Source of the DNA: an uncultured Clostridia bacterium
GTDB lineage: Bacteria > Bacillota > Clostridia > Christensenellales > Aristaeellaceae
DNA: 64,000 bases
Direction of reading: 5' to 3'
Assembly (NCBI GenBank): GCA_947166705.1
Contig: CAMVFE010000001.1
Coordinates: forward strand, 62,001-126,000
The notes under the pieces are model-generated. The model did not search any database, was not told the origin of the DNA, and saw nothing but the letters and a program-made list of their open reading frames with translations. Position 1 is the first letter of the stretch, and every line of letters begins with the position of its first letter. A program made the translations under genes and the position numbers. Of the stretch, positions 24,703-58,300 are shown in pieces.

Positions 24703-25599
24703 CTACACATCGTAGGCCTTATCGATGGCCTTCAGCTCCCCGAAGGTATCGATCTCCACGATATCCTCGTCCTGGCATTCCCGGACCTCAACCCGGTAAT
24801 GCCCCTTCCGGTACACCAGCGGCACCTGCTCCCAGTACCGCTCCTTTCCGCCGGGGGAATCGTAGACCTCCCGGATATCCCGGTCCAGCCAGCGGCCGTC
24901 CTCCTCATTCCAGTAGGAGATGCCGACCATCTGCCAGATGTCGTCCCCCTCGCCGCCGACCATCTCCTCGGTGATGACCCCGTCCTTCACCCGGAAGCAC
25001 CAGTCGTTGGTCCGCTCCTTCCGGATCGCGAGGAAATCGGAGGCGTAGTGGTATTTCCGGATGATCGCCGGATTGGAGATCAGCAGGTCCGCCTCGAACA
25101 CGTACGCGTTGGAAAGCAGGCCGCGGGCGGCGAGGGCGGAACTGATGTTGTTCGCCTCGTTGTACGCCGGGTTCTCCAGAAACCTGATCATGGGATAGGT
25201 ATGCAGCAGCTGGTCGAACTGCTCGCCCAGGTACCCCCGCACGATCCAGATCTCTTCGATCCCGGCCGCCAGGCACGCATCGATCAGGCGGCTGATGATC
25301 GGCACGCCGTGCACGCGCACCAGCGGCTTGGGGGTGTTCAGGGTGATCGGCACCAGCCGGGATCCGAACCCGGCGGCGATGAACACCGCCCGCTTCGCGC
25401 GGTAGGGCTCCAGCGCGCGGATTCCGTCGGCGGTCACCCGCCCTTCCTCGGCCAAGCCGCGGCCCTTCAGCTCACGCAGCACCCGGTTCACCGTCCCGAG
25501 GGAGTGCCTCGTCCGGGACTCCAGCTCCCGCTGGGTCAGCGGGCTCCGGCTTTCGGCCAGCGCCTCCAGGATGTCAAACTCTTTTCTTGTCAGGTCCAT
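24703..25599 (-). CDS. Winged-HTH + LicC-like sugar/choline-phosphate nucleotidyltransferase
   Basis: LTRKEFDILEALAESRSPLTQRELESRTRHSLGTVNRVLRELKGRGL then RAVFIAAGFGSRLVPITLNTPKPLVRVHGVPIISRLIDA; paralogous to the C-terminus of the 18166-20736 fusion. Confidence 0.9.
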   Translation of the reverse strand: MDLTRKEFDILEALAESRSPLTQRELESRTRHSLGTVNRVLRELKGRGLAEEGRVTADGIRALEPYRAKRAVFIAAGFGSRLVPITLNTPKPLVRVHGVPIISRLIDACLAAGIEEIWIVRGYLGEQFDQLLHTYPMIRFLENPAYNEANNISSALAARGLLSNAYVFEADLLISNPAIIRKYHYASDFLAIRKERTNDWCFRVKDGVITEEMVGGEGDDIWQMVGISYWNEEDGRWLDRDIREVYDSPGGKERYWEQVPLVYRKGHYRVEVRECQDEDIVEIDTFGELKAIDKAYDV

Positions 25600-25978: not shown

Positions 25979-27937
25979 TTATTTGTCCGTCTTCCCCCGT
26001 TTTTCCTCCCCGGCGCGCCGGGCGGCGGCCTCCGTCAGGCGCCGCACGATGTAGGCGGCCCCGGTCTTCCCGCTTTCCCCGGGATGGAAGATGTTCTCCT
26101 CCCGCACCCGGCGGATCTGCTCCCGCCAGGCCTCCGGATCCCGGGTCATCTCCGCGATCACCCCGTTCACCCGGTCTAGCTCATCCTTGTTCAGGGATCG
26201 GCCGATCCGGTCCCGCAGGGCGATTTCCAGCGGCGTGATGCCGATCCGCTCCCAGTTGGGGTTGGGCGCCTTCATCTTCGTGTTGATGAACAGGGTAGGC
26301 CGCTCCCGGGCGTAGGAGTACTCGTACGCGATCCCGGACCAGTCGGTGATCAGCACGTCCGCCTCCTCCATGCTCCGGTTGGAGGAAAAGTCCGTCTCGA
26401 ACCGCAGGCCCTCCCCCGTCTTATCCGCCCAGCGGTTCATCAGGCTCTCCAGCTTCGGTCCGTACCGCTTCACGTATTCCGGATGCGGCCGCACCGTCAC
26501 GATCCGGCCCTCCGCCGGCAGCCGCTCCAGCAGACCGTCGATGCATGAATCCAAGATATTGTCCTCGTTCCAGCTGGGGGCGATCAGCACCCGCTGGATG
26601 CCGTCCTTCTCCGAAGGCAGGGCGTCGGCGCCCTCCGCCCGCAGGTCATCCAGCAGCGGATAGCCGAACTCCACCAGCGTCTTCGCCGGCAGGCCGTAGA
26701 CCTCCTCGGTCTTCCGGATCTCGCGGACCTGCTGGGGCCCGACGCAGAACACCGTGTCGAAGTGGTCCATCGCGCCCTCCCGGAAGCTCATGTGGACGCT
26801 CATCGGGTCGTGGGGCGTGTAGATGTACTCAATATCCTTCCGTACGTAGCTCCGCTTGATGTGGAAGGACTCCAGGTCCGGGGTCGTCATCACGACGATG
26901 TCCGCGTCCATCTTCATCATCAGGGTGATGATCTTCTTCGGCCCGATATAATACGGTAGGATCCGGGGCTCCTTCTCCGCGATCCGGAAAACCTGGTCGT
27001 CCGGGTCGTTGGTCACGTAATGGATCCGGACGTTGGACTGCTTCAGCAGCTCCTCCGCGGTATCCCGGAAGTATTTCCAGAAGCCGCTCTTCTCGCTGTA
27101 GAACACGACGTGCTTGTTCCGGATGGAGAAGAACCGGCGGTAGTCCGCCTTCTCCCGCTTCGCGTTTTCATCATGGGCGAAAAGGCCCTTCTTTTCCCCG
27201 CCGAGGCTCTCGATCTCCCGCAGCGCCTCCCGGCTCTTTTCCAGCTCCGCGTAGTCCACGTGCTTCTGCGGCGGGATGGCCGCGTTCAGGGCGTACATCT
27301 GGGCCACGGACAGCAGGTTCCCGGCGATCCAGTACAGGCCGATCCCCGCGGCCACGAAGATCCCGAGATACAGGCTCAGCCCGACGGAAATCACCAGCAT
27401 GCTCACCTGGTTCAGCCGGCTCTGCTCCGCCTGCAGCGCCTGGCTCCGGTTCTGCGCCGCGCACATGACCAGCGCGCTGAGCGCCGCGGCGACGGGCACC
27501 GCGATGGAAATGCCGCCCCGTTCGGCGGGCACCCAGCCCAGGTTGATCCCCAGGAACGTCAGGTCCTTCTCCGCCGCGCCGCCGATCAGGCTCCGGATCG
27601 CCTCCACCAGCCCCAGCAGGATGATGAGCTGCACGATCACCGGAACGACCCCGGCCATGGGGTTGTATTTTTCCCGCTTGTAGAGCTTCGCCGTCTCCTC
27701 GGCGATGGCGTCCTTGTCCCCGTAGCGGTTAACGTGCAGCCAGTTGATCTCCGGCATCAGCCGGACCATCTTCAGCCCGTTCAGGTGAACCCATACGCTC
27801 AGGGGCAGCAGCAGGACACGGGTCACCAGCGTAAAGAGCAGGATCGCCCAGCCGTAATTCCCGCACAGGGAAAAGCACCAGCCCATCACCGCGCCCGCGG
27901 CGTCCCCGATCCACCCGATCACCGTCTGCAAAGCCAA
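25979..27937 (-). CDS. Fusion: YidC/Oxa1-like insertase domain + CDP-glycerol glycerophosphotransferase-like domain
   Basis: N-terminal GNYGWAILLFTLVTRVLLLPLSVWVHLNGLKMVRLMPEIN...LYKREKYNPMAGVVPVIVQLIILLGLVEAI (YidC-like); C-terminal VLIAPSWNEDNILD, VRPHPEYVKRYG, ADVLITDWSGIAYEYSYARERPTLFI (TagF-like); single ORF of 652 aa. Confidence 0.93.
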   Translation of the reverse strand: MALQTVIGWIGDAAGAVMGWCFSLCGNYGWAILLFTLVTRVLLLPLSVWVHLNGLKMVRLMPEINWLHVNRYGDKDAIAEETAKLYKREKYNPMAGVVPVIVQLIILLGLVEAIRSLIGGAAEKDLTFLGINLGWVPAERGGISIAVPVAAALSALVMCAAQNRSQALQAEQSRLNQVSMLVISVGLSLYLGIFVAAGIGLYWIAGNLLSVAQMYALNAAIPPQKHVDYAELEKSREALREIESLGGEKKGLFAHDENAKREKADYRRFFSIRNKHVVFYSEKSGFWKYFRDTAEELLKQSNVRIHYVTNDPDDQVFRIAEKEPRILPYYIGPKKIITLMMKMDADIVVMTTPDLESFHIKRSYVRKDIEYIYTPHDPMSVHMSFREGAMDHFDTVFCVGPQQVREIRKTEEVYGLPAKTLVEFGYPLLDDLRAEGADALPSEKDGIQRVLIAPSWNEDNILDSCIDGLLERLPAEGRIVTVRPHPEYVKRYGPKLESLMNRWADKTGEGLRFETDFSSNRSMEEADVLITDWSGIAYEYSYARERPTLFINTKMKAPNPNWERIGITPLEIALRDRIGRSLNKDELDRVNGVIAEMTRDPEAWREQIRRVREENIFHPGESGKTGAAYIVRRLTEAAARRAGEEKRGKTDK

Positions 27938-38840: not shown

Positions 38841-40793
38841 ATGACCGAGGCGGCTGAAACCATCCGTCTTTTTGTTCCCGGACGGCTGTGCCTGTTCGGG
38901 GAGCATTCCGACTGGGCCGGGATGTACCGGTCCGTCAATTCCAAAATCGAAAAAGGCAGGGCCATCGTATCCGGCATTGAGCAGGGGATCCGGGCCACGG
39001 CGGAAAAATCGGACCGCTTCATCATCACCACCTCCCCGGATTTTCCCGAAGAGGAATACTGGGAATGCGAGATGGATACCGCGAAGCTGCTGGAGACCGC
39101 GCAGAAGGGCGGATACTTCTCCTATGTGGCCGGCGTGGCGTCCTACATCAACGACAACTACAGCGTGGGCGGGGTGAAGATCACCGTCGAGAAGCGGGAC
39201 CTGCCCATCAAAAGCGGCCTTTCGTCCTCGGCCGCCATCTGCGTGCTGACCGCCCGGGCGTTCAACCAGCTTTACAAGCTGAAGATGAACGTGAAGGGAG
39301 AAATGCAGGCGGCTTTCCGCGGCGAGCAGCGGACGCCGTCCCGCTGCGGCAGGCTGGATCAGGCGTGCGCGTACGGCGTCAAGCCCGTGCTGATGGATTT
39401 TGACGGGGTGGAGATCGATTCCCGGGAGATCCGGGTCGGAACCACCTTCCACTGGGTGGTGGCCAACCTGATGGCCTCCAAGGACACGATCAGAATCCTG
39501 GCGGACCTGAACAGGGCCTATCCGTTCGCGGAGAACGAGGCAGAGCGGAGGGTCCAGGAAGCGCTGGGACCGGAAAACCGGGCCCTTGTCACCCGGGCGC
39601 GGGAGCTCATCGAGCGGGGGGACGCCGAAGGCCTCGGGCGGTTGATGACCCGGGCTCAGGAGATTTTCGACGCGAAGATCGCCCCCATGTGTTCCGAGCT
39701 GAAGGCTCCGGTTCTGCACGCGGTGCTGGAGGATCCGGAGATCCGGAAGCTGACCTGGGGCGGCAAGGGCGTCGGATCCCAGGGGGACGGCTCCGTCCAG
39801 TTCCTGGCGAGGGACGGCGCGTCCGCGGCGCTGCTGCGGGAATATCTCGAAAAAAAGAAGGGCATGCCCTCCTTCACCCTGACGCTGAAACCGGGGCAGA
39901 CGGTCCGGAAGGCCATTATCCCGCTGGCCGGATTCGGGACCCGGGTGTTTCCCGCGACCAAGTGCATGCCGAAGTGCATGATGCCGGTCTATGACACGGA
40001 CGGTGTGCTGAAACCGGCGCTGATGATCATGCTGGAGCAGCTGCTGGAGGCGGGCATCGAGGACATCTGCCTGATTATCGGGGAGGACGAGGAGGCGGAC
40101 TTCAACCGCTTTTTCGCGCCGCTGCCGGAGGAACAGATGGAAAAACTGCCCGACAGCAGGCGCGCGGAGGAGGAAAAGATCCGGAAGCTGCGGGAGCATG
40201 TGACCTATGTGTACCAGAAGGAAAGGCTTGGCTTCGGGCACGCGGTCTGGCTGACCCGGAGCTTTACGGAGGGCGATCCGGTGCTGCTCCTGCTGGGCGA
40301 TTTCCTGTACCGTTCCGGGCGGGAGGTCAACTGCTGCAGGCAGGTGATCGACGCGTACAAGGAATGCGGCTGCGCGCTGGTCAGCATCACGGAGGTGCCG
40401 CTGAGCCGGGTCGTCCATTACGGCATCGTGCACGGCGTGTGGAGCAACAGCGAGGAAAACCTGATGAAGGCGGACCGGATGGTGGAGAAGCCGACGGACG
40501 ACTACGCCAGGGAGTACCTGGGCGTCCGGAACGCGCGGAACGAACAGAAATACTACGCGACCTTCGGGCAGTACGTCCTGACGCCGGACGTTTACGAAGA
40601 GCTGGAATACCGGATCCGGGTTATCGGGAAGCCCTCCGAAGGGAAGGAGTTCGGCCTGACGGCGGCGCTGGACGCCGTTCGGGAAAAGAACGGCCTGTGC
40701 GGTTTTGTCCCGGACGGGGAGTCCTTCGACATCGGGCTGCCGGACGCCTACCGGGAAACCGTGTGGCGCTACGCCGGGCCGGAGGCGAAATAA
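38841..40793 (+). CDS. Bifunctional GHMP sugar kinase + GalU-like sugar-1-phosphate nucleotidylyltransferase
   Basis: N-terminal RLCLFGEHSDWAG and PIKSGLSSSAAICVLTARAFN (GHMP); C-terminal KAIIPLAGFGTRVFPATKCMPKCMMPVYD...GDFLY (UTP-glucose-1-P uridylyltransferase-like). Confidence 0.9.
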   Translation: MTEAAETIRLFVPGRLCLFGEHSDWAGMYRSVNSKIEKGRAIVSGIEQGIRATAEKSDRFIITTSPDFPEEEYWECEMDTAKLLETAQKGGYFSYVAGVASYINDNYSVGGVKITVEKRDLPIKSGLSSSAAICVLTARAFNQLYKLKMNVKGEMQAAFRGEQRTPSRCGRLDQACAYGVKPVLMDFDGVEIDSREIRVGTTFHWVVANLMASKDTIRILADLNRAYPFAENEAERRVQEALGPENRALVTRARELIERGDAEGLGRLMTRAQEIFDAKIAPMCSELKAPVLHAVLEDPEIRKLTWGGKGVGSQGDGSVQFLARDGASAALLREYLEKKKGMPSFTLTLKPGQTVRKAIIPLAGFGTRVFPATKCMPKCMMPVYDTDGVLKPALMIMLEQLLEAGIEDICLIIGEDEEADFNRFFAPLPEEQMEKLPDSRRAEEEKIRKLREHVTYVYQKERLGFGHAVWLTRSFTEGDPVLLLLGDFLYRSGREVNCCRQVIDAYKECGCALVSITEVPLSRVVHYGIVHGVWSNSEENLMKADRMVEKPTDDYAREYLGVRNARNEQKYYATFGQYVLTPDVYEELEYRIRVIGKPSEGKEFGLTAALDAVREKNGLCGFVPDGESFDIGLPDAYRETVWRYAGPEAK

Positions 40794-45389: not shown

Positions 45390-47105
45390 TCAGCCGGGCG
45401 TATTCTCCTCTGCCTCCGTCAGAAGCCTCCCCTGCCGGAGCCTCCAGTGCTTTTCGCAGATGCCGTCCGCCGCCGGCCGGTGGCTGACGAGGATCACCGT
45501 CCTGTCCCGCAGGCCGGCGATGTTCCGCAGCATGGCCGCCTCCGTCTCCGCGTCCAGCGCGGAGGTGGCCTCGTCCAGCAGCAGGATGGGCGCGCCGCTC
45601 AGGATGGCCCGCGCCGCCGCGACGCGCTGCGCCTGGCCCTCCGAAAGCCCGATGCCGTGCTCACCCAGCACGGCGTCCAGCCCGATCTCGTCCGCCAGCT
45701 CCTCGATGCACGCCGCCCTCAGGGCCGCGCGCACCGCCTCCGGCGGGGCGTCCCCGGCGAAAAGCAGCAGGTTCTCCCGCAGCGTCCCAGAAAACAGCGT
45801 GTTCCCCTGGGGAACGTAGGCGAAGAGCCTCCGGATCCCCCGGGACGCGGGAACCTCCCGGCCCCCGCCCTCGAAAACGATGCGTCCGGACGTCGGCTTC
45901 CAGATCCCGAGCAGCAGCTGGAAAAGGCTGGTTTTTCCCTCCCCGGACGCTCCCCGCAGCGAAATGGAATCCCCCTTCCGGATCTCGCCGCAGGCGTCCC
46001 GCAGCACGTCCTCAGTCCCGTCTCCGTACCGGAAGCTCACGTGGTCCAGCCGGATGCGCTCAAAGTCCGCGAGGGTCCCCAGGTTCTCGTCCTCCGGCAG
46101 GCTCAGGAACTCCTGCAGCCGCTCCGCGGACGACGTCGCCGCGTAGACCCGCGCCATCAGGTTCGCCGCGCCCGCGACCGGATTCTGCAGCCTGCTCACC
46201 AGCGGAATCAGCGCTGCCAGGCTTCCGTAGCTGAATTCGCCCCGGAAGATTTTGACGCAGCCCCACAGGTAGCAGAACAGCCAGGAAAAATCCAGCACGC
46301 TTCCGACACCGCTGCGCATGAAAACGGCCAGCATCCCGTTCCGCTTCCGGGCCTCCGCCAGCTCCTCCGCGCGCTTCCCCACGCGTTCCATCGCCCGCGC
46401 CTCCGCCGCGCCGGCCTTCAGCACGCGGATGTTTCCGACCGTCTCCTGCGCCGCGGCGTGCATCGCGTCCTCCGCCCGCTGCATGCGGCGGTGCCGCGCG
46501 CGCACCGGTCCCCGGAACATGCGCGTGAACGCCGTCCACGCCGCGGAGCCCAGCAGCAGCGCGGGCACGAACCGCCAGTCCATCGTGATCAGGATCGCCG
46601 CCGCCCCGATGAAGGATACGCCCGTCCGGACCAGGGACGGCAGGACCTCCGTCACCCCGTCCCGCACCTCGGTGGCGTCGGAAAAGATCCGGTTCACCAG
46701 CTCCCCGCTGTGGTAGCCCTGCAGCGCCGCCCAGTCCCGCGTCAGCAGCCCCTGCACCGCGTTCCGCTGGATCTCCTTCTGCAGGTCCGCGGAAGCCCGG
46801 TTCTGCATGTGCCCGCTGAGAAAGGAAAACACCCGCTCCAGCACGATCGCCGCCGCCAGCAGGCATCCGAAGCGGATCATCGGCTCCCGTGCCCCGGCCG
46901 CGGCGCTGTCCACCAGCTCCCGGGTGATCAGCGGTATGCCCAGCGCGGTCAGCACGAAGAGAATATTGAGCAGGATCATCAGCCGCACGGTGCCCCGCAC
47001 CGGCCGGCACCAGCCCCGGATCAGCGAAAGCGGGGAAAAGCGGAAAACCTTTTTCAGCTTTTCCAGATCGGATACCTGCCTGTCCGTTTCCCTGCCGTCC
47101 CTCAT
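45390..47105 (-). CDS. ABC exporter (fused TMD-NBD), last transport gene of RiPP operon
   Basis: 6-TM domain plus GASGEGKTSLFQLLLGIW, LSEGQAQRVAAARAILSGAPILLLDEATSALD. Confidence 0.93.
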   Translation of the reverse strand: MRDGRETDRQVSDLEKLKKVFRFSPLSLIRGWCRPVRGTVRLMILLNILFVLTALGIPLITRELVDSAAAGAREPMIRFGCLLAAAIVLERVFSFLSGHMQNRASADLQKEIQRNAVQGLLTRDWAALQGYHSGELVNRIFSDATEVRDGVTEVLPSLVRTGVSFIGAAAILITMDWRFVPALLLGSAAWTAFTRMFRGPVRARHRRMQRAEDAMHAAAQETVGNIRVLKAGAAEARAMERVGKRAEELAEARKRNGMLAVFMRSGVGSVLDFSWLFCYLWGCVKIFRGEFSYGSLAALIPLVSRLQNPVAGAANLMARVYAATSSAERLQEFLSLPEDENLGTLADFERIRLDHVSFRYGDGTEDVLRDACGEIRKGDSISLRGASGEGKTSLFQLLLGIWKPTSGRIVFEGGGREVPASRGIRRLFAYVPQGNTLFSGTLRENLLLFAGDAPPEAVRAALRAACIEELADEIGLDAVLGEHGIGLSEGQAQRVAAARAILSGAPILLLDEATSALDAETEAAMLRNIAGLRDRTVILVSHRPAADGICEKHWRLRQGRLLTEAEENTPG

Positions 47106-47175
47106 GCCGCGTCCTCCCGCCGTGCCGTCCGAATTCCGTCTCCCCGTGCCGTCCGCGGGGCGCCCGCAGGCGGTC

Positions 47176-48327
47176 CTACCGCGCCGGCGGATCCTGCTTC
47201 CCCCGTTCCGGCAGCAGGCCCAGCACGGCCTTCATCTCCGCCGCCGCCTTTCCCCTCCGGCGGGAAAACACCCCGCGCGCCAGGCGCGCCGCGCAGTACG
47301 CCGGATACAGGAACGGCGCCCTGCGCAGGGAGGGAAAGGCCTCGGTCATGTAGCTGTAGGGGGGAACGAGCCGCGCCAGGAAATAGCGGAGCCGGCCCCG
47401 CTGCGCCACCTTTTTCCGGATGCCCTCCTCCATTTCGCCGTAGGCCCCGGCGTCGGCGATCCGCCCGAACATCTCCCGCTGCGCCGCGGTCAGCTCCCGC
47501 CCGGAGAAAAGCGCCTCCGCCAGTTCCCGGTTCGTCCGCTCGAAATCCGCGATCCCCATCTTTTGCGCTTCCCGGGCGATGTAGGCCATGTCCGGCCGGC
47601 AGCTCCGCAGGAAAACGTAGATATCCAGCAGGGACCGCAGCCCCGTCCCGTTCTCGGAATAGTGCTTGTATTCATGGGCGGTCATGTAGAGGTAGAAATC
47701 CTCGTCCGAAAAATGGTATCCGAACCCGTTCCCCTCGTCCTTGATGAGCCGGTCCTTCACATGCTCGTAGTACGCCGCCACCCCGGATCCGCGGATTCCG
47801 GAAAACACCGTCTCCGAAAACAGCTTCCGGTGCATCTCGAAATTGCTGACCGGCGGCCGCATGTAGACGTCGTGGGCGTCCGCGCCGTAATGCTCCTGCG
47901 TGAAGCCCAGCTCCAGCATGATCCGCCGGACGTCCTTCGCCCGCGCCGCGTCGAACAGGATGTCGTTGTCCGCCATCTCCCGGAGCCCGAAGCCGGGATA
48001 CCGCTCCTTCATCACCGCTCCCTTGAGCGGCATGTACCAGATGCCGGCATCCTCCAGCGCCGCGAGCACCCGCGCCCGGTCCCGGTCCAGCAGCAGGATC
48101 CGCCGCTGGGCCTGGGCGATCGCCCGGTGAAACCTTTCGTCGCGGATTCCCGCGGCCTCCAGGGCGGTCCCCGCCGCGGATGCCAGGGAGTGGCGCGCGG
48201 CGGCTTCATAAACCCGGCCCAGGTCCATCCGGGAAACCAGCTCCCCGGGCGGCGCCTCGCCCCTCACGGCGCAGGAAGCCAGCAGCGCCGCCTGCTCCGC
48301 CGGCGTCCCGTAAGCTCTTTCCATCAT
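47176..48327 (-). CDS. NTP_transf_5-like nucleotidyltransferase family protein
   Basis: ALEDAGIWYMPLKGAVMKERYPGFGLREMADNDILFDAARAKDVRRIMLELGF, EMHRKLFSE; frequent companion of Clostridial PqqD/HprK/rSAM RiPP loci. Confidence 0.8.
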   Translation of the reverse strand: MMERAYGTPAEQAALLASCAVRGEAPPGELVSRMDLGRVYEAAARHSLASAAGTALEAAGIRDERFHRAIAQAQRRILLLDRDRARVLAALEDAGIWYMPLKGAVMKERYPGFGLREMADNDILFDAARAKDVRRIMLELGFTQEHYGADAHDVYMRPPVSNFEMHRKLFSETVFSGIRGSGVAAYYEHVKDRLIKDEGNGFGYHFSDEDFYLYMTAHEYKHYSENGTGLRSLLDIYVFLRSCRPDMAYIAREAQKMGIADFERTNRELAEALFSGRELTAAQREMFGRIADAGAYGEMEEGIRKKVAQRGRLRYFLARLVPPYSYMTEAFPSLRRAPFLYPAYCAARLARGVFSRRRGKAAAEMKAVLGLLPERGKQDPPAR

Positions 48328-48773
48328 GCCTCTCTCTTCCGCCGGAACCGCCGGATCCGCCGCAGCAGCCCCCGCGCCCGCAGCGCGATCACCCGCGCCG
48401 GGTACCCGGCGCCCCAGATCCGCGCGTAAATCCGGTATTTCCGGTCCTTCACCGATATCGTCTTCCCGTCCCGGATGACCGCCGTCAGCACGCCGATCAT
48501 CTGCCGCGGCGGAACGCCCTTCTCCCGCCGCCACCGGTTGTCCCCGCACATCACGTACCCGTCCGGCCGGATCTTCAGGATCCGGTGCAGCACGTATTCC
48601 CCGCTGTCCCGCCGGTACAGCGGCACGTCGTATTTCCTCAGCGGCTCCCGGATGGGCTCGATGACCACCAGGTCCCGGCCCTCCCGGATCAGGGGAAGCA
48701 TGCTGTCCCCCCGGTTCGTGTAAACCAGCCGGCCGTCCCGCTCCAGGATCTCGCGAAAGTCCATCTTACTCAT
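48324..48773 (-). CDS. S24/S26-like signal peptidase-fold protein
   Basis: TNRGDSMLPLIREGRDLVVIEP (Ser motif), YDVPLYRRDSGEYVLHRILKIRPDGYVMCGDNRW (LHRI and GDN motifs). Confidence 0.8.
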   Translation of the reverse strand: MSKMDFREILERDGRLVYTNRGDSMLPLIREGRDLVVIEPIREPLRKYDVPLYRRDSGEYVLHRILKIRPDGYVMCGDNRWRREKGVPPRQMIGVLTAVIRDGKTISVKDRKYRIYARIWGAGYPARVIALRARGLLRRIRRFRRKREA

Positions 48774-51201
48774 CCGCAGGCCCCGCCTCTTCCCCCGTCC
48801 CGTGAATCCGCCAGACCTGCGCCGCCCAGCCGGCCTTCCGGGCATATCCGATCCGCAGCTGGGCAAGGCTTTCCTCCCCGGCCGTGTCGGCGTACCAGGT
48901 TCCCAGCTTCTCAAAGCCCTCCACGGATGCGTCCTCGCAGACCAGCAGGCGGACCAGCAGGCTGTCGCAAAGGTTTTCGCTGCACAGGAAGGCGCAGTAC
49001 CGCCCCTTCTCCCGCAGCAGGACGGCGGCCAGGCCGTCGTTTTCCCGCCTCTCGTCCCGGATCCTTTTTCCGTTCTCCCAGACGCAGAGGCGGCTGAACG
49101 CGCGGGTCTCTCCCTTCAGGGTGTATTCCGCTTCGATGTGCCCGTACTCCCCTTCCCGGATCCGGACGGTATATCTCCCGTCCGTCATCGGGATCAAGGC
49201 CTCCCCGTTCTCCGCCGCGGCGGACGCGGACGAGCTCAGCGTGAAAGCGCGCTCCTCCTGCGCCCTCGTCTCCGGGTTCCAGAAGCCGAAATATCCCAGG
49301 GAGGTGTATCGCTGCAGGATGTCCGTGCTCAGCACCAGCGCCGCCGGATCCGGATCAACAGGATGGGTTTCGTCCAGCACCGCCGCCGGCGCCCCCTCCT
49401 CCCGGAAAACCGCCCCCGCTTCGTCCCGGGAAAGCGGCAGGATCCGGAGCAGCAGGCCGGCGGCCCGCGCCTGGTCCATCCCCGCCTCCGTCAGCCGGTC
49501 CAGCGCGTCGGTCCCGCTCTCGCCCAGCATGCGGAAAATGCCGGCCGCCAGCCTCGGGTCCTCGGCCAGCAGCGCCTTCGCCAGAAACCAGCTCCGCGCC
49601 CCGCTGTCGCTTCCGCCGTCCCCAAGGGTCCGGCGGTCTCCCCGGTACTGCAGGTAATATCCGTCGTCCCACCAGGACGCGGCCACGGTGTTCTCCGGCG
49701 TGTGCTCCCGGACCCACCCGAGGGCCTCCGCCTTGCTGTCGTTGATCAGGGTGGAGGGCGCAGAGCTCCGGAGGTTCTTTACGCCCGTCCGGCACGCGGG
49801 AAGGGCGGCGGCCAGCGCCAGCGCCGCGCACAGCGCCCGGGCGGCCGTTCTCCGGCGTCCCTGCGCCCGGCCCGCGAGCCGGTACAGTTCCCCCACCGTC
49901 AGCCCGCACAGCAGGCAGACGGGCAGCGCCGTGATCTCCGCGAAGCGCACCGCCCGCAGCCCGAGCAGGATCCCGGCCGTCAGCCACAGGCTGAAATAAA
50001 CCGTCTCCGTCCGGGCATACGCGGCCTCCCGCCTAAGGGTCTCGTCCTCCGCCCCGCGCCGGGTCGCGGCGGCCCGCGCCCAGCTGAGCGGGAACCAGTA
50101 GACCGCCAGTGCGAAGGGAATCAGCCCGCCCGCACGGCCGAGCAGCGAATCCGTGCCCGGCAGGATCAGCTTCCGCAGCCCGCCCTTCGGCAGGAAGGGC
50201 AAAGGCTGCATCTCCGCAATATGCTCCAGGGCGTACGGCATGGCGTCTGCGCTTCCGGCCGCCGCGCGAAACGCGGCCGGCGCGCGCAAAAGCTCCGCAA
50301 GCCCTTCCCGCCCGCGCACCAGCAACAGCGCCGCCGCGGGCAGCAGCAGCCCCGGCAGCGCACGCCGGAGGATCAGCCGGATCCGCCGGGACGGCGCCAG
50401 GCCCGGAAAAGCGCGGGAAAAAAGCAGCAAAGCGGCGCTGATCGCCAGCGCCGCCTCGGAAAGCAGCAGGTATCCGGAATGCGCGCGCCAGAAAAGCCCC
50501 GTCGCGGCAAAGGCGGCGGCGCTCAGCAGGGCGCAGGCCAGCCTCCGCCCGCGGCCCGGCTCGCACAGGCTCGCCATCTGCGCCGTCACGGCCGCCGTCG
50601 GCAGCACGGCCAGCGCCATGTCCGTATCAAAAAAGCCCGCCTGCGTATGCTGCACGAAGGGAATCGCCCCGGCCGCCAGCAGCGCCGCCGTGAGCCCGCC
50701 CGCGAGCGAGGTCCTTCTCCGCGTATAAAAATACGCGGGTAGCACTGCGAGGCTCCCGATCACGGGGCCCATCCAAGCAGCGGTCCGCGTCAGGGAAACG
50801 CCGAAGGGGGAAAGCAGCCGCCACAGCGCCCACGCGAGCACGGAAAGGCCCAGCGGCTGTACAGCGCCGTCCTTCCCGCCGCCCGTGCGCGCGCCGATCA
50901 GGGGATCATCCTCCCGGTTCTGGGTCCAGGCCGCGCCTCCCCCCTCCGCCATCTCCCGCGCCTTGCGCAGGTAGTAGTACGAATCGTTCTCCGTCAGATA
51001 GGGCTCCCCGTCCTCATCCTGGAAAAAAGAAAAAACCCGGGGTTCCTCCGCCGGGAGCAGGTATGCGGAGGCCCGGATCAAAAAGGCCGCGCAAAATACA
51101 ACTGCCAGCAGAATCCCCGGAAGCAGTTTCCTGAAAGCGTATTTCCGGCGCGGTTTTCCCTCCGCCCCGTTTTTCGTCTCCAAGTCTTTCCCGTCCTTCA
51201 T
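48766..51201 (-). CDS. STT3/PglB/AglB-type oligosaccharyltransferase (GT66-like)
   Basis: ENDSYYYLRKAREM (first-loop acidic motif), AGFFDTDMA (DxD), signature AASWWDDGYYLQYRGDRRTLGDGGS (WWDxGY), polytopic N-terminus with soluble C-terminus, 811 aa. Confidence 0.93.
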   Translation of the reverse strand: MKDGKDLETKNGAEGKPRRKYAFRKLLPGILLAVVFCAAFLIRASAYLLPAEEPRVFSFFQDEDGEPYLTENDSYYYLRKAREMAEGGGAAWTQNREDDPLIGARTGGGKDGAVQPLGLSVLAWALWRLLSPFGVSLTRTAAWMGPVIGSLAVLPAYFYTRRRTSLAGGLTAALLAAGAIPFVQHTQAGFFDTDMALAVLPTAAVTAQMASLCEPGRGRRLACALLSAAAFAATGLFWRAHSGYLLLSEAALAISAALLLFSRAFPGLAPSRRIRLILRRALPGLLLPAAALLLVRGREGLAELLRAPAAFRAAAGSADAMPYALEHIAEMQPLPFLPKGGLRKLILPGTDSLLGRAGGLIPFALAVYWFPLSWARAAATRRGAEDETLRREAAYARTETVYFSLWLTAGILLGLRAVRFAEITALPVCLLCGLTVGELYRLAGRAQGRRRTAARALCAALALAAALPACRTGVKNLRSSAPSTLINDSKAEALGWVREHTPENTVAASWWDDGYYLQYRGDRRTLGDGGSDSGARSWFLAKALLAEDPRLAAGIFRMLGESGTDALDRLTEAGMDQARAAGLLLRILPLSRDEAGAVFREEGAPAAVLDETHPVDPDPAALVLSTDILQRYTSLGYFGFWNPETRAQEERAFTLSSSASAAAENGEALIPMTDGRYTVRIREGEYGHIEAEYTLKGETRAFSRLCVWENGKRIRDERRENDGLAAVLLREKGRYCAFLCSENLCDSLLVRLLVCEDASVEGFEKLGTWYADTAGEESLAQLRIGYARKAGWAAQVWRIHGTGEEAGPADE

Positions 51202-51222
51202 CTCCGCCGCGGGCCGGATTGC

Positions 51223-51348
51223 TCAGCAGCTGACGTTCATGTTCGAGGAGCCGTACTTGGAGGTGCAGTCCTCTCCCGAGGTCAGGATCGCGTCGTCCTC
51301 GAGCTCGATGACTTCCATTTCGGGCTTTTCGTAAGCGGTCTTTTCCAT
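51223..51348 (-). CDS. RiPP-type precursor peptide (41 aa) with NVS sequon and two Cys in core
   Basis: RBS GGGAGGAACCACC then MEKTAYEKPEMEVIELEDDAILTSGEDCTSKYGSSNMNVSC; sits between pqqD-like/rSAM and STT3; the 61-aa ORF in the track starts too far upstream. Confidence 0.85.
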   Translation of the reverse strand: MEKTAYEKPEMEVIELEDDAILTSGEDCTSKYGSSNMNVSC

Positions 51349-51404
51349 GGTGGTTCCTCCCGGATAGTCTCTTCCGCGCGGGCCGGATTCCGGCCCGTTC
51401 GCTG

Positions 51405-51665
51405 TCATTCCTCCAGCGCGCCGATTCCGCGCAGAGTATTCAGGATATTCGACACGTCCCGGGCAATCTCCTCCCTCGGCGCGTCGTATTTTTGGAATAA
51501 TTCCTCCACGATCCGCTCCTCCGTGGTTTCCTCCTTCAGCCGGTCCACGATGAAGGCGGCCGCGGCGTTGCTGCGGACGATGCCCTTGAAGGCCTCCCGT
51601 CCCAGCGGCACCAGGAACTGAACGCCGTCCAGCTCCTGGGTCATAAAATTCTCTTTAAGCTTCAT
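51405..51665 (-). CDS. PqqD-like RiPP recognition element protein
   Basis: 86 aa MKLKENFMTQELDGVQFLVPLGREAFKGIVRSNAAAAFIVDRLKEETTEERIVEELFQKYDAPREEIARDVSNILNTLRGIGALEE; typical PqqD fold pattern. Confidence 0.9.
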   Translation of the reverse strand: MKLKENFMTQELDGVQFLVPLGREAFKGIVRSNAAAAFIVDRLKEETTEERIVEELFQKYDAPREEIARDVSNILNTLRGIGALEE

Positions 51666-51679
51666 CTTCCGTCCCTCCT

Positions 51680-53026
51680 TCAGCAGTCCGCGTCCGGAAC
51701 TTCTTCCTCCGCCGCCGGTGCTTTTCCTTCCAGATATTCCGCCGTCCTGATCTGAAAACGAAGCATGCGGATTTCCCGGCATCCGGCGTCCTGCACCGGG
51801 CAGGACGCGAAGGGCGTGCATTCCGGCAGGAACGGGCATTTCCGGCATTTCTCCCGGACGCTGTCCGTCCCGCGGATGCGTTCCTCCTTTTCCGGATCCG
51901 CGCTTCCGTCCGTCAGGTTCCCGTAGCGCATTTCCTCCGAGCAGTGCTCGCACGCGTACAGGCTGCCGTCCGGCCCGATCACGACGCTTCCCATGTCCGC
52001 CATGCAGTGGCGGTTCCTGAAATCGTACAGGGTGAAGCGAGAATCCCGCGCCCGGAAGCCGAAGGAGCGGATCAGCGGCCGCGATTCCGCGATCTTCCGC
52101 CACAGCGCCGGGCTGCCCCCGCTTTCCCGTACGGCGTTCAGCCCGCTCAGGTAAACGTCCACGTTCGATTTGTCCGGCACCGCCTCCGCCAGGTCGGAAA
52201 GGAAGGCGCCGACCCCGCCGATGTTCTCCTCGTCCACATTGCTCCGGACGGAAACCTTCACGCCCCGCTCCGCCAGCATCCGGACGGCGCTGAGCACCCG
52301 GCGATAATGCCCCTTCCCGGCGGGATACCTTTTGCGGGCGGCGTAGTCCGCTTCGTCCCCGTCCATGGAAACCTGCGCGTGCCGGATCTGCCAGGGCCCC
52401 GCCATCCGGTCCGCGGTTTTCTCCGTGATCAGGCTGCCGTTCGTGGTGATGTTGCCCTGGAAGGGAATGCCGGCCTCCCGGACGCGCTCCGTGATGAAAT
52501 CGATCACCGCCGGCGCGGCCAGCGGTTCTCCGCCGAACCAGTTCAGGACGATCTCCCCGGGGCGGCGCGTCCGGATGATATACTCCGCCGTCTTCTCCGC
52601 GGTCTCCTGCGTCATGGTCGTCTGCGGCCGGCCCTCCTCGAAGCAGTAGACGCAGCGCGCGTTGCACGCGGTGGTCGGAAGGATGGTGTACCCCGCGATC
52701 CCCTTCCGCCGGACCATCGCGTGCATGATCCGGAAAACGCCCATGTAGAACGCGCATTCGTCCTTCCCCTCCGGGACAAGGTAATACGCGCGGATCAGCT
52801 CCTCCAGCTCCCCGTTCCCCGCGGCCTCCTCCGCCGTGACGCGCTCCGGCAGCCTGCCCTCCGGCTCTGCCAGCTGCCTGGTCAGGGTATGGAACCACAG
52901 CCGCCTGCCTTCATGCTCGAAGGGCAGCGCGAACTGCGACCGGACGTAGGCGCCGTCCCGCCGCACCGCCTGCGGCGGCAGGATTTTCCGCAGCGCGGGA
53001 TCTGCCCTGCGGCATTCCTTCAGCAT
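51680..53026 (-). CDS. Radical SAM/SPASM peptide maturase
   Basis: ILPTTACNARCVYCFEEG (CxxxCxxC), NWFGGEPL, SPASM-like Cys cluster CEHCSEEMRYGNL...CRKCPFLPECTPFASCPVQDAGC. Confidence 0.95.
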   Translation of the reverse strand: MLKECRRADPALRKILPPQAVRRDGAYVRSQFALPFEHEGRRLWFHTLTRQLAEPEGRLPERVTAEEAAGNGELEELIRAYYLVPEGKDECAFYMGVFRIMHAMVRRKGIAGYTILPTTACNARCVYCFEEGRPQTTMTQETAEKTAEYIIRTRRPGEIVLNWFGGEPLAAPAVIDFITERVREAGIPFQGNITTNGSLITEKTADRMAGPWQIRHAQVSMDGDEADYAARKRYPAGKGHYRRVLSAVRMLAERGVKVSVRSNVDEENIGGVGAFLSDLAEAVPDKSNVDVYLSGLNAVRESGGSPALWRKIAESRPLIRSFGFRARDSRFTLYDFRNRHCMADMGSVVIGPDGSLYACEHCSEEMRYGNLTDGSADPEKEERIRGTDSVREKCRKCPFLPECTPFASCPVQDAGCREIRMLRFQIRTAEYLEGKAPAAEEEVPDADC

Positions 53027-53754
53027 CCGAATACCCCCCTGTACGCGGTCTTCGCCGCCTCCGGCGACATATTGCATTCCAGCCCGTAAAAGGCCGCCCT
53101 GTCCAGCATTTCCTGCCGAAGTGCCATCGTCCTTTTCGCCTCCTCCGGATCCTCCGGCATCCAGGAATGCTTCGCCATCAGCAGGAACGCCTCGTCCCGG
53201 GTCAGCGGGGCAATCCGGTTCCCCTCGCTCCGCCGCACCCGGATCACCGCCTTCAGCGGGGCACTGACGTTCCTGCTCAGCCGGTGCTTCCCGTCCCAGG
53301 GCGATCCGTGGACCATGACCCGATCCTCCGAAAGCCTCAGCAGAGGCTTGTCGTCGTTGATCATCCACACCCGGTCTCCGAAGGCCTCCCGCCAGAGGCG
53401 GGCCTGGGTGCTCTTCCCGGTCCCGCTCGGCGCGGTGAATATGACCGCTTCCCCGTCCATGCACAGGGCGGAGCCGTGAAGCAGCAGCACGCCGAAAGGC
53501 AGCAGCGCCTGGACGATCAGCCGGTGCAGGGCATTGTTTTCGAGGTAGCTGTCCGCCACGCGCTCGTATCGGAAGCCCTGTCTTTCGGCCATCCGGTCCA
53601 TCTCGAGGCGCGTCCGACGCAGGTCATCCTCCGAGGGCTCCACCGCCGCTTTCGGCTCCCTGTCCGTCAGATAGTTCGCCAGGAAGTCCCGGTTCTCTTC
53701 AAACCTGCATTTCACCTGAACCGGCACCCCGGCCAGCTCCGCCGTGAAGGTCAT
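53020..53754 (-). CDS. HPr kinase (HprK)-like P-loop protein of RiPP locus
   Basis: LLLHGSALCMDGEAVIFTAPSGTGKSTQARLWREAFGDRVWMINDDKPLLRL (Walker A and INDDKP motif). Confidence 0.88.
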   Translation of the reverse strand: MTFTAELAGVPVQVKCRFEENRDFLANYLTDREPKAAVEPSEDDLRRTRLEMDRMAERQGFRYERVADSYLENNALHRLIVQALLPFGVLLLHGSALCMDGEAVIFTAPSGTGKSTQARLWREAFGDRVWMINDDKPLLRLSEDRVMVHGSPWDGKHRLSRNVSAPLKAVIRVRRSEGNRIAPLTRDEAFLLMAKHSWMPEDPEEAKRTMALRQEMLDRAAFYGLECNMSPEAAKTAYRGVFGC

Positions 53755-53907
53755 ATCCGTTTGTCCCCTACTTTTTATTTATTCAGGCCATCCGCTTGCA
53801 AATCGGAATCCAGCTTTTATACAGCAGCTTGATCAGATCGCCCAAAGTGAAAGCACTACAACCTATTCCCGGATCACATTATTATGCGTCAGCCGGTTGC
53901 CCCGCTG

Positions 53908-54129
53908 TCACCGGCTGAATGCTTCATAATAAAAATGTAGGAACCTACACGAGGGGCTTGAAAAAACAAGTTGGTTCTGCTTGAACAGTACTTCTCCAGC
54001 CCGGAGTTTATCGCCAGAATTGTCAAAGCATTCAATGACATCCAGTCTGTCCAATACCTGCTGCAGCGTGTAGTCCATAAAGAGATTGTTGTCCTGCATC
54101 TGTTTCTTAATGTAGGAAATCTTTAACAT
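53908..54129 (-). pseudogene. C-terminal fragment of an IS1634-like transposase
   Basis: SYIKKQMQDNNLFMDYTLQQVLDRLDVIECFDNSGDKLRAGEVLFKQNQLVF resembles transposase C-termini; no N-terminal part present. Confidence 0.45.
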
Positions 54130-54195
54130 CTAACACTTTTAGAACAGTCCTGCTTGGTCTCTATTTCTAGAAAACCAAGCCCCAAATGTAATGCA

Positions 54196-55538
54196 CTATT
54201 TTGCTGCGTTAGAGACATCTGACAAGTATTGATCTTGAATAATTTGGTATTTGTTTTTGTAAAATTCTTCGGCAGCATTCCAATTTTTTCGTTCAAATTG
54301 TTCACCAGTTAGCTGTTCTGCGATTACCCAAGTGCTAAATTTATAGTCTCCTCTCCAATCTTTTGTCGATTTAAGATTAGTTTGTGTAAGGTTAGATACA
54401 ATCAATAACACACATAATATACACAGCAAAACCTTCACTATAGCCGCTCCTTTTTCAGTTTCAATGCATTTGAGCTTTTTGATAACACTGGAAAACAGAT
54501 CATAAAAACATAGCACAATGAAAGAGTAGAACGGGAGCAGAACTCTGGTGGCAATATAGCCTTTATGCATAATAAGTTGCATTAAAATATTCGTTGCAAT
54601 GAATATAACCAACATCATTGGCAAATCTTGTTTCGAAAAGTCTTTTCTCAAGAATAGTATGGCTACAGCGCCACAAATCAAGGCAAGAAGCGCAAGAATA
54701 AACGCCAGCGTGTTGTTATTAGTAAACATTCTTGTATAGCCTTCAACAACGCTACTAAAGAAGTTCTGTGCTCTACCTGTATAAAGTGGCTTTCCTTCAG
54801 AACTAATATTCATGTGAAACTTAACCATTAATAAAGTGAAAACAATGAAAAATAGGAAAAAGATACCACACTTTTTCAGTAAATGTTTAATCGTTTTTCT
54901 CTGAATTATGCGAAGCAAGCAGATTAATCCGACTGCCGGATATAGTAGAAGTACTATAGTATTAGAAAAAACTCCCATGCTCATATATACCATCAACCAA
55001 TTTAAATGCTTCATCTCAAAATAATCAGAGTCGATCCACTTTTTATATGCAAGGAATGCAAAAAAACGCAAGTGTTCGCCATACCATAACCACGTGCAAG
55101 GCCATAAAACTCCAGAAGATAGTAATTGCTTACAAGAAAGAATAATGTAGTTAGTGAAAATTGTTTCCTTTTGTATCCATAACCAACGCCAATGAGATAG
55201 AGAACGAAAAAAACTAATGATGGCAGCCTGATTAGAAACTCATTGTAATCAACTCCTGTGATCAAATGGCAAAGATTAATCAGCATGGAGTTTAGCCAAT
55301 GGTTATTTGCTATACAACCTGCTTTACTATACAAATGCCGCAATGTGTTATAGTTGAACAAATCAATTCTGCCAAAATTCATATAAGTATATGCCTCGTC
55401 ATAAGTGATGCCTGAGACAATACTCCTGATAAGCACGATCGCAAATAGTAAAAGAAAATAACCAAAAAGCAACCAAAACAAAAGGCGAATTGCCTTATTG
55501 TCTATCCACTTTCTGTTTGTTTCCTGAACATTCATCAT
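54196..55538 (-). pseudogene. Low-GC GT39-like multi-TM glycosyltransferase gene, frameshifted
   Basis: N-terminal half (55011-55538) and C-terminal half (54196-55071) lie in different frames, overlapping at a T7 homopolymer; SGITYDEAYTYMNFG...NNHWLNSMLINLCHLITG...GLARGYGMAN is typical of GT39-like proteins. Confidence 0.75.
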
Positions 55539-55590
55539 ACCTCACCTCATGTTGACATGGGGGAGTACTTTATACCGAGTGGGGGCAAAA

Positions 55591-55785
55591 TCACCTTACC
55601 ACCCACACCCCGTTCTCATCCGTAAAAAACGGAAGCTCCGGGGAATCGGCGGCCGGAAAGCAGTATGTAGCGGCCCGGATCCCAAAGCCTGCGCAGAACA
55701 CCGCCGCCAGCAGGATTCCCGGAAGCATGATCTTCGAAAGGAAACGCCGAAGCGAAGCCCTCTCCCTTTTTTCCATCGCGATCAA
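55591..55785 (-). pseudogene. N-terminal remnant of a second STT3-like gene
   Basis: LRRFLSKIMLPGILLAAVFCAGFGIRAATYCFPAADSPELPFFTDENG aligns with FRKLLPGILLAVVFCAAFLIRASAYLLPAEEPRVFSFFQDEDG of the full-length STT3, then stops. Confidence 0.85.
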
Positions 55786-55833
55786 AGCCTTTCCGCCCTT
55801 TATTCCTTTACGGCATCGGCAGGCTGAGGAACG

Positions 55834-55962
55834 TCATATGGCAGCACCGCCGATACTGTTCGGATCCAGATCAGCTGTCATAATCAGGACCGCATCGTCC
55901 CCGATTTCTATCCCTTCTATCTCCAGCTTTTCATAAGCCATCTTCTCCAAGGGATATCCCAT
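55834..55962 (-). CDS. Second RiPP-type precursor homologue (42 aa; possibly decaying)
   Basis: Reverse-strand reading MGYPLEKMAYEKLEIEGIEIGDDAVLIMTADLDPNSIGGAAI; leader aligns with MEKTAYEKPEMEVIELEDDAILTSG; absent from ORF track because under 60 aa. Confidence 0.75.
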   Translation of the reverse strand: MGYPLEKMAYEKLEIEGIEIGDDAVLIMTADLDPNSIGGAAI

Positions 55963-55976
55963 ATAGACAATCACTG

Positions 55977-58103
55977 TCAGTTTACTGTCTCAATGGTCTG
56001 GGTCTGCTTTAAGGATTCAGAAGGGTCTGTTTCTTCCAGGTACATGGCCGTCATATAAAAACTCAATAACCTTTTATCTCCACTTTCTCCTAATTCCCTT
56101 GGGGAAACAGCATCCGGAATTTCAATCCTTAATTTGAGTTTTCCATTCACAATTGTTCCTTTGGGGATGATAAATTCGAATGTCTTAGGATTGTTTATTT
56201 CTGAATCCATTACTAAGATATTGTTTGCATATGCTCTGACCGTTTGATGATCGTTATAAATTCTATTATAATCAAAGTGAACCTTTAGATCTTTTTCGAT
56301 TTCCTTGTTGAATTTGAAAGAGGCAACCGCTTCGTGTCCCGTCATCCATGTTGCGTTTTCTTCACTTAGGCCCAGGCCTAAATTCCAGTATTGCCTTGCA
56401 GTACCGTCTCCTATAAATGATAGTTTGTCTCCCAAAGTATAATCCCTGTATTCTGAGGCTACGAAATGGAAATTTGATTCTTTATTCCCTTCTGAATCAA
56501 CACTGTATTCAGTCAAAGTCGGAAGATAATCACCCAAAGCACCATCCCATATATAGTAAAAATACTGCCGCTGTCTTTCATCTTTCTCTGGAATGTCAAA
56601 AACAGATTCGCCAAATCGATGGTCCAGATTCAATCCAATTTCTTCCATCACTGTTGCTTGTAAATCTCCATGGCAAACAGGCGCATCCGATACTTTAAGC
56701 TTACCCCGGCTGCCCACAGGCTTAATAAGCAAAACAGGATTGGTAAATAATTCATCAGTACGGCCATGATCTGCAGTAATTATTATCAAGGAATTATCGT
56801 ATACACCTAGTTTCGTCAACTGTGCCATATATTCATAAACAATTGCTAAACATGCTTTCGATTCTGAAATGCAATCAGCACTTCCATCTGTCACCGTTTC
56901 AAGGTTTTCATTAAGCGTAAACGGAGGATGTGGCCCATTTAAGTGGATTACACTATATCTGTTTCCATCCTTTTGAATTTTCAGCGGATTCGATCGGAGC
57001 CAATTATAATACCAGGCATTATCATCGCTGAACAATTCTTTGTTATCGAAAGAACCGCTCTTTTTCCATTTGTTGAATTCATCACTGTAAAGCCAGACAA
57101 ACCTTTTCAACGCATCAGGGAAAAACCTGAAAGCAGCAAATTGATAAAGAGTCTTTGTCAATCCTGCGTAAGAGGAAACAATGGGTCTCGACTCAGAATA
57201 ATTGCAAATCAACCGGTTGCCTTTATCCGTCTCAACAAATAAGGGATCTGTATAGATTCCTATTGAATAACCATTTTCTGAAAGCAAATCATAATAATCC
57301 GTTTTTTTGAACGCTTCTCTAATATACTCTCTTAATGGCATCTCATTTCTGTTTATCTGTCCGGTTAGCATGTATGGTAATGATCCCGCGGTAGTCGGAT
57401 ACATACAGGTAACATTGCGAAAATAAACAAACCCATCCAACGGCTCAATGTATCTTTCATCATTCTGGTTTATTTCATCAAAATAATCCTGATCGAATGT
57501 ATCCAGAACAAAAACTATCACATTACGGTTTTCGGATATTTCATCCAGTCCTTCTGTAGTCAGAGTTTTCTTAATTCCTGCTGTACCTTGCCCGCCGTTA
57601 TTGACAATGAGCATAATCATAACAGCCGACAACTGAATTGCCAGCAGTAAATAAGACCCATACTGGATACATTTCCTGCCAATATTTGGCTTGATAAACA
57701 TTATTACAACTGGAAGTGCCAATATTGCTAACCATAATGCAGCATCCTTTATCTCTCTCCCCAAGTATTGACTCCAGTCAATCATCCGGCCATCTAAAAC
57801 ACCATAATCAGCATTGATAAAATTACCTTGGACATAAAGACATAGTGAAAGGCCAAACAGAGTGCACATAAAAAACTCCCGGCCCTTTTGTGGAATTAGC
57901 ACGCCAACGACAGAGAGAATTACGAATGATAAAAACGCACACAAGATGCAGGGAAGAACAATATCCGTCAGTGAAAACCATAATTCACTTTGATTGGTCA
58001 AGTATACAATCAACGGACAACATATTCCCGCTGTTACAGCCAGTAACGCTGCCGTTGGAAAAATTGTTTTCAGTGCTGTTTTGTAATCCTTCATAATGGT
58101 CAT
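55977..58103 (-). CDS. Multi-TM sulfatase/LTA synthase-like alkaline phosphatase superfamily protein
   Basis: 5-6 N-terminal TMs, NVIVFVLDTFDQDYFDEI, MYPTTAGSLPYMLTG, IHLNGPHPPFT, SLIIITADHGRTDE. Confidence 0.85.
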   Translation of the reverse strand: MTIMKDYKTALKTIFPTAALLAVTAGICCPLIVYLTNQSELWFSLTDIVLPCILCAFLSFVILSVVGVLIPQKGREFFMCTLFGLSLCLYVQGNFINADYGVLDGRMIDWSQYLGREIKDAALWLAILALPVVIMFIKPNIGRKCIQYGSYLLLAIQLSAVMIMLIVNNGGQGTAGIKKTLTTEGLDEISENRNVIVFVLDTFDQDYFDEINQNDERYIEPLDGFVYFRNVTCMYPTTAGSLPYMLTGQINRNEMPLREYIREAFKKTDYYDLLSENGYSIGIYTDPLFVETDKGNRLICNYSESRPIVSSYAGLTKTLYQFAAFRFFPDALKRFVWLYSDEFNKWKKSGSFDNKELFSDDNAWYYNWLRSNPLKIQKDGNRYSVIHLNGPHPPFTLNENLETVTDGSADCISESKACLAIVYEYMAQLTKLGVYDNSLIIITADHGRTDELFTNPVLLIKPVGSRGKLKVSDAPVCHGDLQATVMEEIGLNLDHRFGESVFDIPEKDERQRQYFYYIWDGALGDYLPTLTEYSVDSEGNKESNFHFVASEYRDYTLGDKLSFIGDGTARQYWNLGLGLSEENATWMTGHEAVASFKFNKEIEKDLKVHFDYNRIYNDHQTVRAYANNILVMDSEINNPKTFEFIIPKGTIVNGKLKLRIEIPDAVSPRELGESGDKRLLSFYMTAMYLEETDPSESLKQTQTIETVN

Positions 58104-58300
58104 TGTGAAGATCTCATTGCTTTAGAGAACTCCCCATTACCTCCTTCCGTATTTTTACGTAACCCCCATTAATTCCCATAGCCTCTATGCCTTTTTCGCC
58201 TCGACGATCCTGCACTGTACAGTACGTACAATACCGTCACGGTCCGCTGCAGGCATAATGCGGCCAATAGTTACTCTTGGATTTATTCACTGTCGAAAAA

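Follow-up and report, generated by a model that had tools for sequence, protein, structure and literature searches.

A second, decayed copy of the precursor and STT3 genes from a radical SAM RiPP cassette in a Clostridia genome

The window, i.e., the whole analysed stretch of 64,000 nucleotides, holds an intact RiPP cassette (copy 1; 45390-53754, within a surface-polysaccharide locus) that encodes a precursor peptide followed by an oligosaccharyltransferase of the STT3 type, and at 55591-55962 an incomplete second version of this gene pair (copy 2). Our main reading, to which we give a probability of roughly 0.7, is that copy 2 is an old, decayed segmental duplicate, and that the intact cassette would make a peptide which is modified by a radical SAM enzyme with the help of a RiPP recognition element (RRE), exported, and glycosylated by STT3. 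Taken alone, a decayed paralog of this kind is nothing unusual; the interesting object is its parent. The pairing of RiPP maturation with an oligosaccharyltransferase is recurrent and apparently undescribed, and the product of the intact cassette is probably a new peptide that is both modified and decorated with sugar. All features are listed in Table 1.

Table 1. Features of the intact cassette (copy 1), of the second copy (copy 2) and of the genes abutting the latter, in window positions.
Feature	Position	Strand	Remark
MsbA-like ABC exporter (LppD-like)	45390..47105	-	clear match
NTP_transf_5 nucleotidyltransferase (LppN-like)	47176..48327	-	Pfam 6.3e-39
S24/archaeal-type signal peptidase I-like peptidase, LppS-like candidate	48324..48773	-	weak; TIGR02228 E 5e-4, below cut-off
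STT3, oligosaccharyltransferase, 811 aa	48766..51201	-	DxD, E, WWDDG motifs intact
Copy 1 precursor peptide MEKTAYEKPEMEVIELEDDAILTSGEDCTSKYGSSNMNVSC, 41 aa, ATG at 51348	51223..51348	-	YxxP-type leader
GC hairpin with a perfect 9-bp stem in the PqqD-precursor 1 gap	51367..51385 (approximate)	-	CGGGCCGGA-A-TCCGGCCCG
Discrete PqqD-type RiPP recognition element	51405..51665	-	Pfam PqqD 1.7e-13
Radical SAM/SPASM peptide maturase	51680..53026	-	five cassettes share CxxxCxxC and the SPASM cysteines
HprK-like kinase-related protein	53020..53754	-	weak; NCBIfam TIGR04352 E 0.0011, below cut-off
AT-rich membrane protein (about 36% GC), abuts copy 2 downstream	54196..55538	-	
STT3 remnant of copy 2, first ~60 codons including TM1	55591..55785	-	homology to copy 1 STT3
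Copy 2 precursor-like ORF, 42 codons	55834..55962	-	leader homologous to precursor 1; core unalignable
AT-rich sulfatase-superfamily gene (38.7% GC), abuts copy 2 upstream	55977..58103	-	

With regard to copy 1, the precursor contains two Cys residues and ends in the sequon NVS, and its predicted core is GEDCTSKYGSSNMNVSC. The intergenic stretch 51349-51404 (-), which includes the GC hairpin, comes to -24.3 kcal/mol; the hairpin may set the RNA dosage of the precursor over its enzymes. The STT3 scores 93.8 bits against PF02516 (cut-off 24.5, E 2.2e-26) and 35.4 bits against PF21436 (cut-off 23), matches solved PglB, and keeps the catalytic residues D73, D192/D194, E330 and W510-W511-D512. Judged by its sequence it groups with PglB, and glycan transfer to N-X-S/T is its predicted activity. 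The WWD motif, which in known STT3s reads the +2 residue of the sequon, is present as the variant WWDDG.

We scanned genome contigs by STT3 alignment and obtained 80 loci, most of which belong to Clostridia of ruminants and other gut sources. The gene order radical SAM-PqqD-precursor-STT3 recurs in four of these genomes, i.e., in L053 and L060 (both Lachnospiraceae/Acetatifactor), L056 (Lachnoclostridium) and L055 (Clostridia, yak rumen), with radical SAM proteins that are 45-50% identical to that of the window. Three of the four cassettes have the ABC exporter and two the NTP_transf_5 gene, and no HprK or S24 match was found near the cassette in any of them. A further locus (L052) retains STT3-ABC at a contig end. 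A leader-like ORF within 2 kb upstream of STT3 occurs at exactly the four recurrent loci (4/80); most of the STT3s found have no precursor nearby. In a tree of 78 STT3 sequences, all five cassette-linked STT3s fall into one 10-row clade (support 97), a concentration of about 1e-5 by count, where the linkage may be inherited within the clade. This clade has WWDDG, most other STT3s WWDYG or WWDMG; the variant was seen in all ten members (window 48766-51201, L049-L056, L060) and additionally in L058 and L078. In wider searches, the family of G086 (397 genomes) yielded no further cassettes and only distant STT3s (27-33% identity), viral contigs gave no match, a radical SAM profile run over the class found only two weak relatives besides the window, and the window's STT3 has no relative in the sampled genomes of its class.

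The earlier note had argued from the duplication that precursor and STT3 move as a unit, in support of a functional linkage. The duplication itself is no proof and weak evidence, since almost any segmental duplication would take along two genes that lie 21 nt apart as in copy 1. On this argument, moving as a unit is not supported: L060 has a glycosyltransferase gene between the two, most STT3s come without a precursor nearby, and 44 congeners yielded no intact second cassette. The linkage, on the other hand, is supported on other grounds, i.e., by the order recurring in four genomes, by the restriction to one STT3 clade, and by sequons in all five precursors.

These five precursors carry seven N-X-S/T motifs (NVS; NQT and NGS; NGT; NHT; NES and NES), such that each core has at least one, one lies near each C-terminus, and none is found in the leaders. 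Shuffling gives P 0.005 for this total number and P 0.015 for every one of the five having a motif. As controls we used precursors from radical SAM clusters of congeners (L042-L048), whose genomes have no STT3 match. None of the four radical SAM-linked control precursors has a sequon (0/4), while the two LPP-like ones (LPP, linear polyphosphorylated peptide; L043, L047) have two each, so that sequons are not unique to STT3-linked precursors. The respective Fisher tests for sequon presence give P 0.06 for 5/5 vs 2/6 and P 0.008 for the comparison with the 0/4 radical SAM-linked precursors. The two LPP-like precursors are N-rich and are encoded at L043 5123-5383 (-) and L047 12654-12929 (+), beside ABC and S24-type genes in their STT3-less genomes.

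From the homology, gene order, recurrence, catalytic motifs and sequons we infer the biochemical steps of the intact cassette and their order. The PqqD-type RRE would bind the YEKP leader and carry the precursor to the radical SAM/SPASM enzyme, which would modify the core inside the cell, probably at Cys. Phosphate or groups derived from nucleotides may be attached by the HprK-like and NTP-transferase enzymes. The S24/SpI-like peptidase would cut off the leader, and the MsbA-like pump would export the core. Outside the cell, STT3 would take a glycan from its lipid carrier and place it on the Asn of the N-X-S/T site near the C-terminus, i.e., the cassette peptide would be N-glycosylated.

Tentatively, and with slightly less than even confidence, we generalize this to a RiPP class of gut Clostridia in which an RRE-guided, radical SAM-modified peptide is first exported and then N-glycosylated by an STT3 of the WWDDG clade that is dedicated to it, with copy 2 as a dead duplicate. 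What is seen is that radical SAM RiPP cassettes repeatedly include a bacterial STT3, and that all of their precursors contain sequons. If the proposal is true, it would be the first link of en bloc N-glycosylation to RiPP maturation; the open-licence literature searched contains no paper that brings the two together. Provided that the precursor is the acceptor, N-linked glycosylation in bacteria would take in small modified peptides, STT3 would have a short substrate of its own that is amenable to in vitro tests, and N-glycosylated peptide scaffolds could be drawn from one small locus.

The strongest competing explanation is that the STT3 of the parent cassette serves as a general N-glycosylation enzyme of the surface-glycan locus and does not act on the precursor. 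We regard this as the less probable but a serious possibility, roughly one chance in three. It agrees with the location in a surface-polysaccharide locus and with the mostly solitary STT3s of the broad family. Within the cassette clade itself, L049-L051 have no RiPP genes nearby, and L054 keeps its STT3 at the place of L053 and L060 without the RiPP cassette, so this STT3 may have other substrates. Against a general enzyme speak the linkage, which recurs in four other genomes of different lineages yet in one STT3 clade only, and the sequon that all five precursors have near the C-terminus. As for L054 itself, its segment 5835-10355 encodes an S24 peptidase and STT3 without radical SAM, PqqD, precursor, ABC or NTP_transf_5; the neighbourhood corresponds to the same chromosomal place as in L053 and L060, so that nature has here either added the RiPP cassette next to STT3 or removed it.

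Copy 2 shows the order and strand of copy 1, i.e., precursor then STT3, as the earlier note had described. Its unlisted 42-codon minus-strand ORF with a precursor-like leader translates to MGYPLEKMAYEKLEIEGIEIGDDAVLIMTADLDPNSIGGAAI, and the STT3 N-terminus that was placed about 50 nt downstream is indeed found after a gap of 48 nt behind the precursor stop; it reads KIMLPGILLAAVFCAGFGIRAATYCFPAADSPELPFFTDENGVWVVR and then stops. Both features lie at the positions that the note had named; a small correction gives precursor 1 as 51223-51348 (41 aa). A nucleotide comparison gives local scores of 85 for the precursor part and 142 for the STT3 part, compared to maxima of 39 and 54 in 300 shuffles, i.e., homology is well above background. 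On the protein level, the two parts score 70 and 121, and 1000 shuffles reach no more than 39 and 55, respectively. Homology extends from a few bases past the stop of the upstream sulfatase-type gene to about STT3 codon 60. That is, STT3 is truncated as claimed, though not right after TM1: the similarity ends at DEDG/DENG shortly beyond it, just before the first conserved acidic motif. When the whole assembly (2.18 Mb, 71% complete) is searched, the STT3 query matches 48766-51201 and the remnant (E 6.5e-9) only, with no match past codon 65 at the second place, and the precursor 1 query matches its own gene and copy 2 (E 0.0046) only.

For the origin of copy 2, we aligned 42 codons of nucleotide sequence from both copies and eleven relatives. 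The remnant and the STT3 part of copy 1 show a DNA identity of 0.70, and every other pair with either of them at most 0.57. The two leaders are 0.73 identical, compared to at most 0.55 (copy 1) and 0.50 (copy 2) with the relatives, and in the nucleotide tree both copies are sisters at 0.967. Since each copy is nearest to its partner in the window, the alignment points to a duplication within this lineage. The GC content of the remnant is 0.56-0.58 and that of the same part of copy 1 0.56; the genes next to the remnant are at 0.387 and 0.363, and the entire cluster is at 0.678. In the simplest reading, copy 2 was once larger, and AT-rich genes took the place of its flanks and cut it back on both sides. 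On this view, 55591-55962 is the core that is left of a segmental duplication which is old, specific to this lineage and comprised the precursor-STT3 part of the cassette. The AT-rich island spans 53890-58200 (34-40% GC in a window of 61%) and is interrupted only by the GC-richer remnant; its membrane-protein gene consists of two overlapping frames (175 and 291 aa), i.e., a broken gene or a sequence error.

Copy 2 could instead be the trace of a related cassette that was acquired separately by horizontal transfer. The foreign-looking, AT-rich flanking genes, the identity of only about 68% between the copies and their high dS would fit such an event, but both copy 2 pieces are closer to copy 1 than to any fetched relative (80 loci), and the GC content of copy 2 matches copy 1 and not its own neighbours, which makes a separate acquisition unlikely in our view. 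We searched 44 congeners with the remnant for an intact second cassette and found none (best non-self E 0.01). This absence says little, since no congener shows a radical SAM-STT3 cassette at all.

The earlier note had called copy 2 probably decaying, with a weak precursor start and a core that lacks N-X-S/T, and all of this agrees with our data. The ATG of copy 1 is a TTG in copy 2 and the Shine-Dalgarno sequence is eroded, the proline of YxxP is replaced (YEKL), the core has neither a sequon nor a Cys, and the GC hairpin of copy 1 is absent. The STT3 frame stops 5 codons beyond DENG and contains none of the catalytic motifs, i.e., neither the first acidic motif nor DxD, the catalytic Glu or WWDxG. 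Kept are the leader pattern AYEKxExExIExxDDAxL and TM1 with DENG. Over 73 aligned codons the copies share a nucleotide identity of 0.68 with third positions least alike, and dN is 0.33 with dS 0.83, rough figures given the few codons. The lowest identity at third positions together with dN below dS indicates that copy 2 is old and was under constraint for part of its history. Now it looks dead and can by its reading frame no longer encode an oligosaccharyltransferase, since STT3 stops before the catalytic motifs, Shine-Dalgarno and ATG are lost, the core has no Cys or sequon, and AT-rich genes abut. The course of this decay is what we infer from these remains.

That copy 2 still provides a working precursor, one whose core has diverged and which the copy 1 enzymes process in trans, and that only its STT3 is dead, appears improbable, and more so than a separate acquisition. 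Rapid variation of the core is established for RiPPs as a class, copy 2 has an open frame and keeps the leader pattern, and in the leader alone dN is well under dS (0.27 vs 1.86, few codons). Nevertheless, the proline of YxxP is gone (YEKL), the start signals are eroded, the core offers no Cys to the maturase and no N-X-S/T to STT3, and an open run of ~16 codons past the leader is expected by chance. The idea that a chance ORF and a generic hydrophobic segment merely resemble copy 1 draws on the shortness of both pieces and is ruled out by shuffles and whole-genome searches, given scores far outside the shuffled range, the same order and strand, and two matching places per query genome-wide.

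Elsewhere in the window, we noted by eye several fusions. 25979-27937 (-) joins an N-terminal YidC-like domain to a CDP-glycerol glycerophosphotransferase-like domain (652 aa), 38841-40793 (+) a GHMP-type kinase to a UTP-sugar uridylyltransferase-like domain (650 aa), and 18166-20736 (-) an ABC permease to winged-helix and LicC-like nucleotidyltransferase parts (856 aa); the stand-alone HTH-LicC-like protein at 24703-25599 resembles part of the latter. A group II intron-type reverse transcriptase ORF (22821-24137, -) coincides with a local GC dip within the polysaccharide locus.

Among known systems, the cassette resembles the LPP RiPPs, linear peptides with polyphosphorylated Ser. In this family LppS has been shown to cleave and LppK to phosphorylate, and the loci also lie in polysaccharide regions (Popov et al. 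2026, PMC13381572). Common to both are a discrete RRE, an NTP transferase, an MsbA-like exporter, a YxxP-type leader and a surface-polysaccharide locus, with no lasso cyclase seen in the cluster; PqqD, NTP_transf_5 and ABC are clear in the window. The HprK-like kinase (E 0.001) and the SpI/S24-like peptidase (E 5e-4), which LPP clusters also have, are weak candidates here, with matches below their cut-offs. The window cassette differs by its additional radical SAM/SPASM maturase and STT3, neither of which is named in the LPP paper (PMC13381572), and by cores with Cys. Furthermore, of the LPP leader YxxPxVLxHQxIxFETxxS and the cassette's YEKPxMxVxxL only YxxP is common. Since the leader differs beyond YxxP and the four relatives have no HprK and S24 matches nearby, the cassette is, on sequence grounds, LPP-like and not an LPP.

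Lasso peptides of the paeninodin type share the YxxP leader, a B1-type RRE, an HprK-like kinase (a weak match here) and a nucleotidyltransferase; inspection of the ORFs at 43-60 kb and of the relatives' flanks revealed no macrolactam synthetase or B2 peptidase. Radical SAM/SPASM RiPPs, i.e., the C-rich target family TIGR04463 and the ranthipeptides, likewise have a maturase beside a short Cys-bearing precursor, and general radical SAM RiPP features are present here (CxxxCxxC and SPASM cysteines, a short adjoining precursor). The window maturase, whose nearest solved relative is 5wgg, differs in its separate PqqD recognition, in its STT3 neighbour and in its score: TIGR04463 and PapB are the profiles closest to it, yet its 101 bits fall far short of their curated cut-offs of 525 and 340.

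With PglB/STT3/AglB, the window STT3 shares the Pfam STT3 match, DxD, the catalytic Glu and the WWD motif, but it is encoded in a RiPP cassette, has WWDDG in place of WWDYG, and its predicted acceptor is a modified peptide of ~20-60 residues. Glycocins are glycosylated bacterial peptides as well; there, however, cytoplasmic S/O-glycosyltransferases act with nucleotide sugars, whereas here we propose an STT3 that would use a lipid-linked glycan.
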